Source: Psychrobacter sp. UBA3480
Lineage (GTDB): Bacteria; Pseudomonadota; Gammaproteobacteria; Pseudomonadales; Moraxellaceae
Reading direction: 5' to 3'
DNA: 64,000 nt
NCBI RefSeq assembly: GCF_002377945.1
Contig: NZ_DFQV01000017.1
Coordinates: 95,669-159,668 of the forward strand
Below the pieces are notes generated by a model. The model was not told where the DNA came from, did not search any database, and saw nothing but the letters and a program-made list of their open reading frames with translations. The position numbers and the translations under genes are program-made. Shown piece by piece: positions 7,207 through 34,501 of the stretch (position 1 is the first letter of the stretch; the number at the start of each line of letters is the position of its first letter).

Positions 7207-8292
7207 ATGTCGTTATTTTCACACCGTACTCATGCTAGGCTCAAATCCAGTACTGCTCCATCAGCGTCAAGCTGGCAGAGCGGTACTGGCAATGCGTTAC
7301 ATCGACGTACTGTCATACCACCGTGGTTCATCAATACAGCAAGCCTCATTCTTATGGGGCTTTTGGTGTTATTGAGCTTATCTATTGGTGTGGCTGACTT
7401 TTCGTGGTCAGGTATCTTGCAGAGCCTGCTGACTCAGAGTGCCAACTCCGATAGCTCATTACTATTGGTTAGCCGTATACCGCGTACCATCGCCATTATT
7501 TTGACTGGTATTGCAATGGCAGTGGCTGGGATGATTATCCAAGTAGTGCTAAAAAACCGCTTTGTAGAGCCTTCTATGGTTGGTGCGACTCAGAGTGCTG
7601 CACTTGGTTTATTGGTGGTCAGTCTGCTGTTCCCTGCCAGTGCCCTTATTGTCAAAATGGGCGTGGCAACCATCGCTGCCGTCTTTGGCATGATGCTATT
7701 TATGCTGCTCATTCACCGCATTCCGCCTACTGATTTTTTGATGATTCCGCTGATTGGCATTGTCTTTGGCGGTATTATTGAAGCCGTCACTACCTTTATC
7801 GCCTATCAAACCGAATCGCTACAGATGCTCAGTGTTTGGCAGTTTGGGGATTTTTCAGGCGTATTAGCAGGGCGCTATGAGCTGCTGTGGCTCACGGGTG
7901 GACTGTGTGTATTGGCCTATATTATTGCTGACAAGCTGACAATCGTTGGTTTGGGTGACAATATCGCCTTAAACTTGGGTATCAGTAAGCGTCAAGTCAC
8001 TTGGATTGGTGTGGGCATGGTAGCCATGATGAGCGCTGTCGTGGTCCTGACCGTAGGCATGATTCCTTTTATTGGGCTGGTCGTGCCAAACATTGTGAGC
8101 CGTCTAATGGGAGATAAGTTGCGTCGCAGCTTGCCAGCAGTTGCCCTACTTGGTGCTTCAGCTGTGTTGCTATGCGATATTATCGGGCGCTCTATTCGCT
8201 ATCCATTTGAAGTGCCAGTCGCCACTATTTTTGGTGTGGTTGGTACAGTGCTGTTTTTATGGCTGTTATTACGTGCACCAGCTGAGCAGTAG
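7207..8292 (+). CDS. Siderophore ABC importer permease 1 (FecCD family, FatD/VctD type)
   Basis: Integral membrane half-permease of 361 residues, FecCD family (BtuC fold) with about nine hydrophobic segments from residue 48 on. Family marks are SRIPRTIAIILTGIAMAVAGMIIQ, the loop FVEPSMVGATQSAALG, GFNIGL-like GDNIALNLGIS and the C-terminal MIPFIGLVVPNIVSRLMGDK that contacts the ATPase. An extra N-terminal tail of about 40 polar residues (Ser/Ala/Thr-rich) is longer than usual; an internal start cannot be excluded but no better site was seen. It lies 81 bp after the binding-protein gene. Confidence 0.88.
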   Translation: MSLFSHRTHARLKSSTAPSASSWQSGTGNALHRRTVIPPWFINTASLILMGLLVLLSLSIGVADFSWSGILQSLLTQSANSDSSLLLVSRIPRTIAIILTGIAMAVAGMIIQVVLKNRFVEPSMVGATQSAALGLLVVSLLFPASALIVKMGVATIAAVFGMMLFMLLIHRIPPTDFLMIPLIGIVFGGIIEAVTTFIAYQTESLQMLSVWQFGDFSGVLAGRYELLWLTGGLCVLAYIIADKLTIVGLGDNIALNLGISKRQVTWIGVGMVAMMSAVVVLTVGMIPFIGLVVPNIVSRLMGDKLRRSLPAVALLGASAVLLCDIIGRSIRYPFEVPVATIFGVVGTVLFLWLLLRAPAEQ

Positions 8293-8388
8293 CACTATGT
8301 TTACTAACTGTGTATTAATTTTCAACACTCACTTACCGTCGTTCATTTTTTGCCTTATTAGATAAGCTTGGCACCATAGGATTTTTGT

Positions 8389-9474
8389 ATGTTCTCATCA
8401 ACTAAGCTTACTTCTACCAAGACTGGTGCTACCAAAACCAGCACAGCGATAGATAACTCATCTTCAGCAGATGGTCAGTATTCAGCCGCTGCACAAGGTC
8501 AGTTGGCAAAGCTTTGGGCATGGATAGCTGCCCATCCAAAATCCATAGCAGCTATTATTCTACTTATCTCGATGACCTTGTTTATGACACTCAATGTCAA
8601 TGGCTATTGGGACTTTGCGCTACCGTTACGCGGCAAAAAACTGCTGGCACTGATAGTGGTTGGCTATGCGATTGGCGTGTCGACGTTACTGTTTCAGACG
8701 TTGACTCACAATCCAATCCTAACGCCCTCCCTACTCGGGTTTGATTCACTCTATGTTCTGTTGCAGAGCTTACTGGTTTTCTTTTTAGGTGCGATTAGCT
8801 TTACCAGTCTCGATCCTATTGCCAAGTTCACGCTAGAGATTGTTCTGATGTTTGGGGCATCTTTATTATTGTTTAAGTTATTATTTTCTAAAAGCAGTCA
8901 GGATCTGACGCGGCTAATATTGGTGGGCGTTATCTTTGGTGTGTTGTTTCGCAGCTTATCAGCACTTATTGCACGGCTGATTAATCCTGATGATTTTGTG
9001 GTTGTACAGTCTGCTAGCTACGCGCAGTTCAACACAGTCAACCCTCAGCTACTAGGTATCAGCTTATTTATCTGTGTCATCACCGCGATATTTGTATGGC
9101 GCTGGCGTTACCAGTGCGATGTGTTGATGCTCGGACAAGCGCAGGCCGTCAACCTTGGTATCAACTATCAACGTTTAGCATTTGGTCTATTAACTGTCAT
9201 TGCTGTATTGGTTGCCACGGCCACTGCTCTGGTCGGTCCAGTGACTTTCTTTGGTCTATTGGTTTGCGCATTGACCAATCGTATCGCGCGACATATGTAT
9301 CACACTGAGCGGCTGATATTGGTCAGCTTGGTCGCTATGATTTGCTTAGTGCTGGGTCAGACTATCTTTGAGCAAGTGCTAGATATGGCAGGCGTATTGT
9401 CCGTCGTGATAGAGCTAGCAGGTGGATTGATGTTCTTAGCATTGATATTTATGTCTCAACGCCGTTCGTTATAA
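8389..9474 (+). CDS. Siderophore ABC importer permease 2 (FecCD family, FatC/VctG type)
   Basis: Second permease half of the importer, 361 residues. After a polar N-terminal tail of about 45 residues come repeated hydrophobic helices. Diagnostic parts are LPLRGKKLLALIVVGYAIGVSTLLFQTLTHN (read in two blocks), LTPSLLGFDSLYVLLQ, LLGQAQAVNLGI-like and ALVGPVTFFGLLVCALTNRIA near residue 285. A Shine-Dalgarno-like AGGA lies before the ATG. The two permeases are of different sequence, as in FatC/FatD and VctD/VctG pairs, and should form a heterodimer. The intergenic gap of 96 bp holds no evident terminator. Confidence 0.87.
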   Translation: MFSSTKLTSTKTGATKTSTAIDNSSSADGQYSAAAQGQLAKLWAWIAAHPKSIAAIILLISMTLFMTLNVNGYWDFALPLRGKKLLALIVVGYAIGVSTLLFQTLTHNPILTPSLLGFDSLYVLLQSLLVFFLGAISFTSLDPIAKFTLEIVLMFGASLLLFKLLFSKSSQDLTRLILVGVIFGVLFRSLSALIARLINPDDFVVVQSASYAQFNTVNPQLLGISLFICVITAIFVWRWRYQCDVLMLGQAQAVNLGINYQRLAFGLLTVIAVLVATATALVGPVTFFGLLVCALTNRIARHMYHTERLILVSLVAMICLVLGQTIFEQVLDMAGVLSVVIELAGGLMFLALIFMSQRRSL

Positions 9475-22160: not shown

Positions 22161-22267
22161 TATAGTCAGTTCAATATAATTTCGATACACGGAAACCGAG
22201 TGCAAGTTATACATGAGTACGCTTAGCGAAGATGACGATGTAGCGGATTTATATAGGCTTGACTATA
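22161..22267 (+). repeat. Dispersed palindromic repeat, copy A
   Basis: About 107 bp beginning TATAGTCAGTTCAATATAA and ending GGCTTGACTATA, with the internal mark GGAAACCGAGTG and CTTAGCGAAGATGACGATG. It matches copy D (33728-33834, inverted) at most positions, and copies B, C and E more loosely. Ends are imperfect inverted repeats. Confidence 0.8.
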
Positions 22268-31211: not shown

Positions 31212-31574
31212 ATGCGTACAGATTCATTTCAGCAGATATTGGAAGACTTAAACAGTTCATCAGCAGATGTTGAAGCATCTGCGCTAATCTCTAACGATGG
31301 TCTTATGATTGCTTCAGCTCTACCAACCGGCGTGGATGAAGATCGCGTGGGTGCTATGTCAGCAGCATTATTATCATTGGGTGATCGTGCAGGACGCGAG
31401 TTGGCACGCGGTAGTATTGATCGCATTATGATTCAAGGCGAGAAAGGCTACGTCATCATGACCTCATCAGGCGATGAAGCGGTACTCACCATCATGGCAA
31501 AACCCAATGCCAAGCTTGGCTTAATATTCCTAGATATTAAGCGCGCCTCAGAAGCATTGGCAAAGCTTATTTGA
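31212..31574 (+). CDS. Roadblock/LC7-domain protein
   Basis: A 120-residue single-domain protein of the roadblock/LC7 (MglB-like) fold: helix FQQILEDLNSSSADVEAS, strand ALISNDGLMIASALP, helix DRVGAMSAALLSLGDRAGRE, then strands SIDRIMIQGEKGYVIMTSSG and AVLTIMAKPNAKLGLIFLDI and final helix RASEALAKLI. Such proteins dimerise and often regulate small GTPases (MglA) or cell polarity. No MglA-type GTPase is encoded in the window. First gene of a five-gene co-directional cluster. It is preceded by about 180 bp with AT-rich imperfect hairpins after the hut terminator. Confidence 0.88.
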   Translation: MRTDSFQQILEDLNSSSADVEASALISNDGLMIASALPTGVDEDRVGAMSAALLSLGDRAGRELARGSIDRIMIQGEKGYVIMTSSGDEAVLTIMAKPNAKLGLIFLDIKRASEALAKLI

Positions 31575-31618
31575 TTGGCGACTGCTTATCGAATTTATTA
31601 GCTTTTAATTACTATAAA

Positions 31619-31726
31619 TATAGTCGGTTCAATATAGTTTGAATACAAGGAAGCCGAGTGAGAGTACTACAAGTAGTAGGCTAAGCAAGGCTGACACCGT
31701 ATCCAATTTATAGAGGATTGACTACA
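31619..31726 (+). repeat. Dispersed palindromic repeat, copy C
   Basis: 108 bp beginning TATAGTCGGTTCAATATAGT and ending GGATTGACTACA, with internal ACAAGGAAGCCGAGTG and GGCTAAGCAAGGCTGAC. It fills most of the gap between the roadblock gene and the PAS gene. Confidence 0.8.
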
Positions 31727-31750
31727 TAACGATCAACGAAGGAGATGACC

Positions 31751-32245
31751 ATGGGTTCTCCAATCCCTGATGCACACAAACCCGATATGCCTGCTGAGCA
31801 AATCACGATGACTTATCATGATGGCACATCACGGACTGTCTATGATACTGGTATAGAGCGCCCCTACCCAGACGGTAAGCTGATTGTCTCGCGTACCAAT
31901 CTCGACGGTATCATCACTCACGTCAACGACGCCTTTGTCGAAATCAGTGGCTATCATATAGATGAATTGATTGGCCAACAGCACTATATTTTGCGTCATC
32001 CTGATATGCCAAAAGCCGCCTATAAAGACTTATGGAGTACTGCTGAGTCTGGACAAAAATGGCATGGCTATGTCAAAAACTTATGCAAAGACGGCAGTCA
32101 TTATTGGGTCTATGCCACTGTGGTGCCTAACGTGCGTCGCGGCGAAATCGTCGGCTACACCTCGGTACGACGCAAACCATCACGCAGCAAAATTGAAGCG
32201 GCGATGACTCAATATGCCCAAATGAAACAAGATGAGGAAGGCTAA
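31751..32245 (+). CDS. Aer-type PAS-domain protein, stand-alone
   Basis: A 164-residue protein that is essentially one PAS domain of the Aer chemoreceptor type: IVSRTNLDGIITHVNDAFVE, ISGYHIDELIGQQHYILRHP, DMPKAAYKDLW, KWHGYVKNLCKDGSHYWVYA and GEIVGYTSVRRKP. In Aer this region binds FAD and senses redox or oxygen; the key Trp and KNxxKDGxHYWV block are kept. There is no methyl-accepting, kinase or GGDEF output domain, so the signal must pass by protein contact. AAGGAG 6 bases before ATG 31751 decides the start over the ATG at 31745. It precedes the next gene by 3 bp. Confidence 0.88.
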   Translation: MGSPIPDAHKPDMPAEQITMTYHDGTSRTVYDTGIERPYPDGKLIVSRTNLDGIITHVNDAFVEISGYHIDELIGQQHYILRHPDMPKAAYKDLWSTAESGQKWHGYVKNLCKDGSHYWVYATVVPNVRRGEIVGYTSVRRKPSRSKIEAAMTQYAQMKQDEEG

Positions 32246-32248
32246 GTC

Positions 32249-32998
32249 ATGACGACACACAATATGTTAATCGCCCCTGATTTCTCGCCTGATCGCTTTG
32301 CAGGCTGGCACATGTTCAACACCTTGATTCAAAAACGTGCCAACTTAAACATGCATCTCAATATCCCTGCCTCTCACGCTGAGCAAGAGCAGGTCATTGA
32401 TGCTGGTGACATTCAAATCATTTATGCCAACCCTTTTGATGCAGCCACTCTCATTCGAGAGCAAGGCTATCGAGCCATTGCCCGACCTATCGGCAAATCT
32501 GATGAGATGGTCATTGCAGCCGCAGCCAATAGCGCTATTAGCCGTTTGGAAGACATTCAAGTAGGGGCTACTGTCGCGATGGCTGACAACCGAGATGTCA
32601 AACTGATTGGTTTGCGATTGCTAGAAGCCGTCGATATAGAAGCCTCTGATCTCAACTGGGATGTGACCGAGACCTATCAAGCGGCTGCCCGCAAAGTCAT
32701 CAAAGGTGAAGCCCAAGTCGCGTTCTTTTTGGCAGAGATATTTCATAGCTTCTCACGCTTGACCAAGACTCAGCTGTCAGTACTTATCGAAAGTGACTTG
32801 GCTGATATCAGTCATGTGTTACTAGTCAAAGAAGACTTTCCCGATGCACAAATCTTTCTAGAAGCCATCCTCAATTTGCACAACGATGACGATGGTAAAG
32901 AAGCATTGGCTGAGCTTGGCATGCCTCAAGGATTTGAGCCAATGAGCGAAGAAGATGCCGAATTTATGATTGATTTGATGCAGACATTATTGGATTAG
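32249..32998 (+). CDS. PhnD-like periplasmic-binding-protein fold without signal peptide
   Basis: A 249-residue type 2 periplasmic-binding-protein fold resembling phosphate/phosphonate-binding PhnD: domain 1 LIAPDFSPDRFAGWHMFNTL, QIIYANPFDAATLIREQGY, hinge GKSDEMVIAAAA, domain 2 LEDIQVGATVAMADNRDVKL and AAARKVIKGEAQVAFFLAE. There is no signal peptide or lipobox, so it should be cytoplasmic, and no ABC permease or ATPase is nearby. A sensing role is more likely than transport. It ends in an acidic helix (SEEDAEFMIDLMQTLLD). Translation is probably coupled to the PAS gene. Confidence 0.82.
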   Translation: MTTHNMLIAPDFSPDRFAGWHMFNTLIQKRANLNMHLNIPASHAEQEQVIDAGDIQIIYANPFDAATLIREQGYRAIARPIGKSDEMVIAAAANSAISRLEDIQVGATVAMADNRDVKLIGLRLLEAVDIEASDLNWDVTETYQAAARKVIKGEAQVAFFLAEIFHSFSRLTKTQLSVLIESDLADISHVLLVKEDFPDAQIFLEAILNLHNDDDGKEALAELGMPQGFEPMSEEDAEFMIDLMQTLLD

Positions 32999-33122
32999 TC
33001 GCTCAATCATTGTATTGATATCAAGCGCTATTTCTCTGGATTACATCATCGCTTGTCGTATGACATCATTACCACTGAAGCAAGCACCGTCGTAATAATA
33101 GCGATGATAGAAGGGTATTATT

Positions 33123-33746
33123 ATGTCTGATTCAGACCTTATTAAAGAAAATGAAAGAGTCGCACACCGAGTATTTCGGTTTTACTCTCGTAAAGTATTT
33201 TTGGCACCCAACAACCGTCACTTTCATGAGCAGCGCATCAATGCAGCTTTGCTATTGACGGAGAAAGAGCCGTTACAAGGTGCTGTAGCGGACTTTTTTT
33301 ATGGGTGCTGGTTTGATATCCCATATGATGTAAACAATCTATTTACTCGTATCAAAGATCGTTTGTATCCTCATGTCCAGCAAGGCTTTCGCGAGTGCAT
33401 TGATAAAAAAAGATACATTCAGCGCAATAGTATGTTGGCCACTCGTTGGAGTGTGCTGATATCTCCTTCTCTCAATGAGCAAAAGCAACGGCTGCGTATC
33501 AGCAGCGATGATGCCCGAGAAATCGCTAAAGACATCACCACTGAGCTGATGCAAGCGCGTGAGGACAAAGACTGGGGTACGATTGAGCAAATCGAAAATG
33601 AGTTTTTTGCCCATTGTACTGCGCGCAATGATCGCCTTGCGTTTTCGCTGGTATGGTTTCGCTTGGGTAGAAGTGACTGGCAGTTCGATGCGCGCTGGGA
33701 CAACTGCCAACAACATCTCGATCAAACTATAGTCAAATCCATATAA
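33123..33746 (+). CDS. Unknown cytoplasmic protein of the roadblock cluster
   Basis: A 207-residue, charged, mostly helical protein with no signal peptide or membrane segment and no recognised family. Notable parts are VAHRVFRFYSRKVFLAPNNR, LTEKEPLQGAVADFFYGCWF, ISSDDAREIAKDITTELMQA and RLAFSLVWFRLGRSDWQFDA. It starts 124 bp after the PhnD-like gene. Its last codons (TIVKSI and the stop) lie inside repeat copy D, so insertion of the repeat has apparently set the C-terminus. Confidence 0.75.
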   Translation: MSDSDLIKENERVAHRVFRFYSRKVFLAPNNRHFHEQRINAALLLTEKEPLQGAVADFFYGCWFDIPYDVNNLFTRIKDRLYPHVQQGFRECIDKKRYIQRNSMLATRWSVLISPSLNEQKQRLRISSDDAREIAKDITTELMQAREDKDWGTIEQIENEFFAHCTARNDRLAFSLVWFRLGRSDWQFDARWDNCQQHLDQTIVKSI

Positions 33747-33834
33747 ATCCGCTACGTCGTCATCCTCGCTAAGCATACTAATGTATAACTTACGCTCGGT
33801 TTCCTTGTATCAAAATTATTTGAACTCAACGATC
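33728..33834 (-). repeat. Dispersed palindromic repeat, copy D (inverted), overlapping a gene end
   Basis: About 107 bp. Its reverse complement matches copy A closely: ACAAGGAAACCGAGCGTAAG, GCTTAGCGAGGATGACGACG and TAGCGGATTTATATGGATTT all have counterparts there. The first 19 bp are the 3' end of the coding region at 33123-33746. Confidence 0.85.
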
Positions 33835-33886
33835 TGAAAGCCTAATTTGTCACTTATCAATCACTTTTATCATAATGGTAGTTACT

Positions 33887-34501
33887 ATGTCCTCTTACTT
33901 AAATGCTGATAAAACCTATCTTACCCTGACGCCAGCTGGTATTTTTGAGGCGTTTTCACAGAACGAACCGACTGATGAGCAGCTAGCATTACAGAATTTG
34001 CTATCTTATGATCAGACACTGCTCGCCGCTGACTGGCTTCAGCGCTATTCTGAACAATGGCTACAGAGCTTTATCGAAAAAGGTTGGATTGAAAAGCTGT
34101 CACTGTTTTTACCAGCGCCTAACTTGCCATTAGACCAGTTTTTGCCTTATGTCGTGGCGAGCTTATCTGGTAAACGCCGAGCCGCGATCGGCTCTGATGA
34201 AGGATTTTGTTTAGCGCGAGTTGGCTATAGTCAAGAAGAAGCGGACATGCTCAGTGTCGCCGCCGCTGATTTTTCAGGCTTTATGCTCCGCCAAAAGCAA
34301 CGTGGGTGGGCAGTAGAGAGTCAGGCAATCTCGTTTTTTCAACAGGTCGACCTACTCATTCCTGAGACCAGCTTTGTGTTTTTATGGATAGATAATGCAG
34401 GCTACGTTCTCATCATCGATGGCGAACCTCTGACCAACAGTCGTGCCTTTGTCGAGCTAGTATGGGCCCTTAAAACCTCTGGATTGAGATTTCTTAACTA
34501 A
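33887..34501 (+). CDS. Unknown protein with a probable divergent roadblock-like domain
   Basis: A 204-residue cytoplasmic protein. The N-terminal half is helical. The C-terminal half has the order helix (FLPYVVASLSGKRRA), strand (AIGSDEGFCLARVG), helix (QEEADMLSVAAADFSGFMLR), strand (SQAISFFQQVDLLIP), strand pair (SFVFLWIDNAGYVLIIDGEP) and helix (SRAFVELVWALKTSG), which follows the roadblock/LC7 fold order. This is an inference from pattern, not a database match. The start is uncertain: ATG 33887 is preferred, ATG 33875 is possible. It is the last gene of the cluster and is followed by a 20-bp-stem hairpin. Confidence 0.7.
   Translation: MSSYLNADKTYLTLTPAGIFEAFSQNEPTDEQLALQNLLSYDQTLLAADWLQRYSEQWLQSFIEKGWIEKLSLFLPAPNLPLDQFLPYVVASLSGKRRAAIGSDEGFCLARVGYSQEEADMLSVAAADFSGFMLRQKQRGWAVESQAISFFQQVDLLIPETSFVFLWIDNAGYVLIIDGEPLTNSRAFVELVWALKTSGLRFLN

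Follow-up and report, generated by a model that had tools for sequence, protein, structure and literature searches.

A roadblock, Aer-type PAS and PhnD-like gene cluster in Psychrobacter resembles a Group 3 MglA system without its GTPase

Roadblock proteins are regulators of Ras-like GTPases. Available descriptions of the Myxococcus xanthus MglA/MglB system (Group 1) have roadblocks coupled to such a GTPase and controlling pili and polarity. Group 3 MglA systems of beta- and gamma-Proteobacteria encode an MglA, one or two MglB proteins and an unknown protein with receiver-like and winged helix-turn-helix (wHTH)-like parts, for which a role in transcription was suggested (PMC4316618, available part). 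We analysed a window of 64,000 nucleotides from Psychrobacter sp. UBA3480 (contig NZ_DFQV01000017.1, positions 95,669 to 159,668) and focused on five genes, A to E, at window positions 31212-34501. As the initial annotation had it, these are five open reading frames (ORFs) on one strand (+), comprising a roadblock gene, a PAS gene, a PhnD-like gene, D and E. Its further statement that no described system has this make-up is not supported, as the core matches the Group 3 MglA system in the available account (PMC4316618). We give an even chance to the reading that the locus is a redox- and ligand-sensing, GTPase-less variant of Group 3, in which A, D and E would signal directly and type IV pili would be the likeliest target.

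The likeness to Group 3 is clearest in relatives of the window locus that carry two further genes, F (~420 amino acids) and G (~182 amino acids). G is a small GTPase as judged by its P-loop, a Pfam match (PF03029) and weak small-GTPase matches. Ten aligned operon G proteins all have the P-loop, a GTPGQ motif and Thr-Thr in G2, and nine have DAR in G5. With the paralogues of loci L162 and L166 included (12 sequences), GTPGQ is present in 11 (L162 has GAPGQ), Thr-Thr in all 12 and DAR in 10 (missing in L230 and L166). In G4, read by eye, L228 and L231 have TKxD and the other 10 sequences lack the Lys, as is often the case in Group 3. Group 1 MglA proteins are instead described with an intrinsic Arg finger and TVPGQ (PMC4316618, in part). 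The relatives' G thus fits the Group 3 GTPase motifs in the available account, E and A would be its two MglB-type proteins, and F, which has no Pfam match, occupies the position of the receiver-like/wHTH unknown protein. F-G-E-A is therefore not a new kind of system; by sequence it corresponds to the Group 3 MglA system, which is already in print but has received little study. The window locus differs in that G and F are absent, while the MglB-type proteins A and, by its model, E are present. The initial annotation was correct that there is no GTPase partner at this locus; this reflects loss in the lineage, however, and not the design of the system.

Other described systems share some of these features. 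Snodgrassella, a Group 3 species, has an mgl locus with a Group 3 mglA and three mglB genes, of which the orphan mglB-3 encodes a 121-amino-acid roadblock; mutation of an orphan mglB alters soft-agar spreading, and the authors infer pilus dependence (PMC11112851, available part). The likeness of MglB-3 to A is by description only, and that part of the paper reports no sensor genes (PMC11112851). No orphan MglB had been characterised according to the accessible part of a 2014 survey (PMC4316618). Streptomyces conservons (CvnA-D) also encode a small GTPase, a roadblock and a sensor together, but their sensor is a histidine kinase, and Pfam identifies no kinase among A-E. In contrast to the M. 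xanthus Group 1 system, the relatives studied here have Thr-Thr and GTPGQ, and the Psychrobacter locus has no GTPase.

A (31212..31574, 120 amino acids) is a roadblock/LC7 protein of MglB type (Pfam E 2.4e-18). Its profile matches solved structures of roadblock 7f8m (2.2e-31), CvnB5 3leq (2.2e-13) and MglB 6h5b (2e-4). An Asp-Gly pair (D29-G30), typical of those MglB proteins whose partner is a Group 2-5 MglA, is invariant in 11 of 11 aligned sequences. The predicted model of E (33875..34501) has a winged-helix-like N-terminus, read by eye from secondary structure, and a putative second roadblock domain at about residues 83-207; a second roadblock fold had been suspected from the sequence, and the model bears this out. 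Pfam returned no match above cut-off for D or E, while A, B and C score well above theirs.

D (33123..33746) is predicted to be all-helical, and its predicted fold has no Foldseek match at E<=0.001. It is probably homologous to H, which opens the gammaproteobacterial operon described below, to judge from an hhalign comparison with one template (probability 97.5, E 7.7e-12, 191 columns) and from its position in the A-B-C-H-F-G-E order. One database name for a D homologue is AbiU2-like, which would make D a HEPN protein. HEPN proteins have a conserved R-x4-6-H motif. We rejected this assignment, as the commonest such column pair is found in just 11 of 43 D sequences.

We identified at least 481 relatives in a scan of named genomes and kept the best 80 loci, from which profiles were built. 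Among these best 80, 49 have exactly the order H-F-G-E-A-B-C, seven have H-F-E-A-B-C and two have A-B-C-H-F-G-E, the Moraxella order; six contain B-C only, and 16 are variants or loci at contig ends. Organisms in this set include Methylotuvimicrobium, Methylomonas, Methylobacter, Thiothrix, Amphritea and Neptunomonas. B and C occur without core genes in view at L275, L281 and L305, where 0.7-2.3 kb of sequence precedes C, and at L286, L298 and L301, where about 10 kb does. In a class-level sample, 18 of the other 368 genomes have a C homologue. All 18 also have an A match, and C and A share a locus in 15; a C-like gene lies apart from A in G143, G289 and G397.

A further 20 class loci were picked for having A without a C match at the locus. 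These typically retain the same core (14 H-F-G-E-A, two H-F-E-A and two F-G-E-A at a sequence edge); L369 has F-G-A, where we found no E, and in L358 F comes after A. No B or C was found in the fetched stretch of any of the 20. H-F-G-E-A can thus be read as a core and B-C as an added cassette, because the core order persists without them. Open-access full text yielded no paper that treats this gene set, with subscription literature mostly outside the search. The available part of the Group 3 account does not mention H/D, B, C, protoglobin, FIST or CZB (PMC4316618), and the description of the whole H-F-G-E-A operon is new here relative to the published core.

Loss of the GTPase is recurrent. 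F and G lie between D and E in six mapped loci (L152, L153, L156, L158, L171, L377), and at the corresponding site the window has a 128 bp D-E gap (33747..33874), as located from the ORF maps of Moraxella-type relatives. By a genome search with G, 14 of the 36 family genomes that have D and E carry the GTPase gene between these two. It is missing there in the other 22: the 18 Psychrobacter genomes with A-E, G023 and the g7 genomes G006, G033 and G042. Across 130 loci, 104 contain A, E and H or D, and among these G is present in 86 and F in 96; these are not frequencies, because the majority of loci were retrieved by way of C and certain genomes occur twice. The 18 G-less loci comprise six from the family, seven of Amphritea/Neptunomonas type, two from Halothiobacillus (L224 and L268, identical in A and E), two from g119 (L362, L363) and L267, which looks G-less only because the contig ends there. 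The other 17 leave 30-143 bp between F and E or between D and E, which is not enough to encode G.

A tree of A and E (81 rows, L267 excluded, Methylococcales thinned) requires five changes in G presence by parsimony, three of them forced by well-supported branches. Without the long-branched Halothiobacillus rows the numbers are four and three, and with L267 they are six and four. The variant with no GTPase at the locus has thus evolved more than once, with roadblocks and sensors retained.

The cluster was surveyed in a family sample of 119 genomes (Moraxellaceae-level; genera are referred to by codes such as g7, g10 and g15). A matches 47 genomes at E<=0.001; 35 of these matches are of the A type (E<=2e-37) and 12 are weaker relatives. 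C is found in 34 genomes, D in 36 and E in the same 36. B is found in 39 at E<=1e-20, 33 at the locus and six as PAS parts of long frames. By genus, A is present in 18 of 26 Psychrobacter, all six g7, 10 of 22 g10 and one of 25 g15 genomes. In Psychrobacter and Moraxella-like genera, A-E are kept together, the outcome on which the initial annotation had staked its idea of a functional set.

One might view A-E as the decaying remains of a GTPase system that has been lost, given that F and G are gone and that two genomes show further loss. These natural deletions, G023 (L154) and G033 (L155), keep D and E and have no B or C match; G023 lacks A and has a D cut at its N-terminus, and G033 has a cut A. 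Selection speaks strongly against decay. The median ratio of nonsynonymous to synonymous substitution rates (dN/dS) across the 18 Psychrobacter species is 0.012 for A, 0.058 for B, 0.051 for C, 0.027 for D and 0.035 for E, counting only pairs with dS 0.05-1.0 (out of 153 pairs, 52 for A, 39 for B, 23 for C, 26 for D and 24 for E). With the window's own genome counted, 15 of the 18 encode an A that shares 98-100% identity with the window protein, and other GTPase-less lineages also retain their remaining genes. A-E look like working genes because these ratios indicate strong purifying selection, and we consider decay very unlikely.

B (31745..32245, 166 amino acids) is a stand-alone PAS protein that likely binds flavin adenine dinucleotide (FAD). 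A B-family profile of 10 sequences matches the solved Aer PAS structure 8dik at E 4.8e-44, followed by a second Aer entry (8.8e-44) and then a sensor protein (2.4e-28), so that E. coli Aer is the best solved match, consistent with the Aer-type assignment made earlier from the sequence. FAD contacts in Aer include R57, W70, N85 and R115 (PMC9668731, available part). B residues R84, W97, N112 and R142 align with these (numbering offset 7) and are invariant in 10 of 10 sequences. The likeness to the Aer site is incomplete, because the position of Aer M69 is Leu in all 10. B also differs from E. coli Aer, which shares the four FAD-contact residues, in lacking a HAMP, membrane or signalling domain; Pfam identifies the PAS domain only, with no HAMP or methyl-accepting chemotaxis protein (MCP) signalling domain.

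C (32249..32998) has a PhnD-like fold (PF12974, E 9.2e-35, residues 7-236), with weak matches to the solved structures of ArrX (4.5e-5) and PtxB (1e-4). The sequence start, inspected directly, has no secretion signal, and the fold match begins at residue 7, which agrees with the original observation that C lacks a signal peptide. C may thus bind a small ligand in the cytoplasm. Its fold also fits the possibility, raised as a refutation in the initial annotation, that C is a remnant of a phosphonate-type transporter in a chance assembly of genes. We regard this as close to negligible in probability: Pfam identifies the genes flanking the cluster as an amidohydrolase upstream and a methyltransferase downstream, with no permease or ATPase, C has no signal peptide by inspection, and the B-C pair and gene order are conserved across Gammaproteobacteria, far outside the family. 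A second, diverged C-type gene lies between E and A in L264, L268 and L224.

Other sensor genes are found in the same position. Of 118 loci, 12 (from 11 genomes, L230 and L310 being one genome) have a protoglobin gene next to A, either in the E-A interval or directly downstream of A; five of the 12 were verified by Pfam. L360 and L361 have a FIST gene after A, L358 has a CZB gene there, and L362 and L363 have one for a GAF histidine kinase. That other sensors occupy this slot is our main reason for reading B and C as inputs. Swappable redox and ligand sensors beside A are newly linked here to Group 3 systems. They would give these systems a likely input (oxygen, redox or a small ligand), a link absent from the available part of the published account (PMC4316618). 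At L162 (genus g5), a GTPase/roadblock cluster is accompanied by a 2Fe-2S ferredoxin-globin fusion and a further roadblock gene (7519-8676, 8664-9050).

Taken as a sensory Group 3 variant, the locus may work as follows. B would report redox or respiratory state through FAD, in the manner of Aer, and C would report a small ligand in the cytoplasm, both feeding roadblock A. A would assemble into a complex with E, the winged-helix/roadblock protein, and with helical D (the counterpart of H). In most relatives this complex would set the nucleotide state of G, with F as a partner or effector. In Psychrobacter, where F and G are gone, an A-D-E complex would relay the sensor state directly, most probably to the type IV pilus machinery or the polar proteins that regulate it. 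The cytoplasmic joining of an Aer-type PAS and a binding-protein fold to a polarity-type roadblock switch, proposed in the initial annotation, agrees with the homologies; the motility output proposed with it is plausible only.

The pilus output is suggested by co-occurrence with pilT, scored as a match to TIGR01420 at E<=1e-145. All 35 family genomes with A have such a match. In g10, it is present in 10 of 10 genomes with A and 0 of 12 without (p 1.5e-6), and in Psychrobacter in 18 of 18 with A and four of eight without (Fisher p 0.0047); in neither comparison is the relatedness of the genomes controlled. Only this within-family pattern is informative, because nearly every genome of the class sample has pilT (346 of 369 at E<=1e-50). 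We gave no weight to pilT-pilU near the operon in some g7 genomes, because in G042 about 6.6 kb and other genes separate E from the nearer pil gene.

Several observations weigh against direct signalling to pili. The pilT cut-off was fixed after viewing the values, the Psychrobacter association is uncorrected for relatedness as stated above, and pilT is too common class-wide to be informative there. In g15, a pilT-grade match occurs in 24 of 25 genomes and A-E in just one. We saw no pilus gene in the window locus or next to it. An output in transcription also fits, because E and, by published fold prediction, F carry wHTH-like parts (PMC4316618, in part). Finally, 10 of the 18 Psychrobacter genomes with A-E carry another MglA-like GTPase elsewhere (that of G070 has an internal stop).

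The last of these observations raises the possibility that the complex continues to depend on a GTPase, acting in trans from elsewhere in the genome, and A has kept the Asp-Gly pair of GTPase-coupled MglB proteins. The window's own genome (G000) has a candidate outside the window (contig C12:26635-27090; L172, L173; 36% identity), with its own 137-amino-acid roadblock neighbour, cut by the contig end. We nonetheless consider a trans partner unlikely. Eight of the 18 genomes (G051, G074, G077, G091, G096, G099, G114, G116) have no related GTPase at E<=1e-6, and in the six loci that were read (L173, L371-L375) of the 10 with a second GTPase, this GTPase has its own adjacent roadblock gene, and so looks like a separate system. 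In L371, L372 and L375, genes of 119 and 242-251 amino acids precede the second GTPase.

In a second alternative, E would bind DNA and be tuned by the sensors and A, and pili would not be the main output. The modelled N-terminus of E is compatible with this, as is the suggestion of a transcriptional role for the receiver-like, wHTH-like Group 3 protein that corresponds to F by position (PMC4316618, available part). Both the pilT pattern and the phenotype seen in Snodgrassella lead in another direction, and we hold transcriptional control to be rather improbable as the main function.

A broader form of the proposal, that the roadblock complex is the signalling core of these systems, is possible but tentative. 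A redox- and ligand-driven A-E-D complex would then act on a pilus or polarity machine alone, and the Ras-like GTPase would be an optional part that has been lost repeatedly. Because some species have the GTPase and others lack it, with the remaining genes under strong selection, a GTPase-free role of roadblocks is directly testable.

The genes of the window locus are separated by 170 bp (A-B), 3 bp (B-C), 124 bp (C-D) and 128 bp (D-E). A promoter scan yielded 11 sites, against 9.2 (standard deviation 2.7) in shuffled sequences, which is nothing beyond chance. A 24-base stretch in the D-E gap (33768-33791, - strand) recurs at 22204-22227 (+ strand) with two mismatches, where none is expected in shuffles. 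The A-B gap (~31620-31735) looks repeat-like by eye, and the 24-mer tested from it is single-copy in the window. An anti-phage role was also considered and rejected: PADLOC at E<=0.01 returned nothing for A-E or F, and for G only a P-loop match (BrxF, E 0.001).

No flanking family was found across more than five locus groups; MCP genes occur at eight loci (one Pfam-checked), protoglobin at seven and bactofilin at four. In a Methylophilaceae metagenome-assembled genome (L303, 6560-8935, - strand), Pfam identifies response-regulator, CheW-like and MCP genes divergent to A-B-C-H-F-G-E, which could, as a guess only, be pilG/I/J. Bactofilin genes lie upstream of the operon in L312 (4507-4890) and L235 (13759-14121), both in one Thiotrichaceae-like clade.

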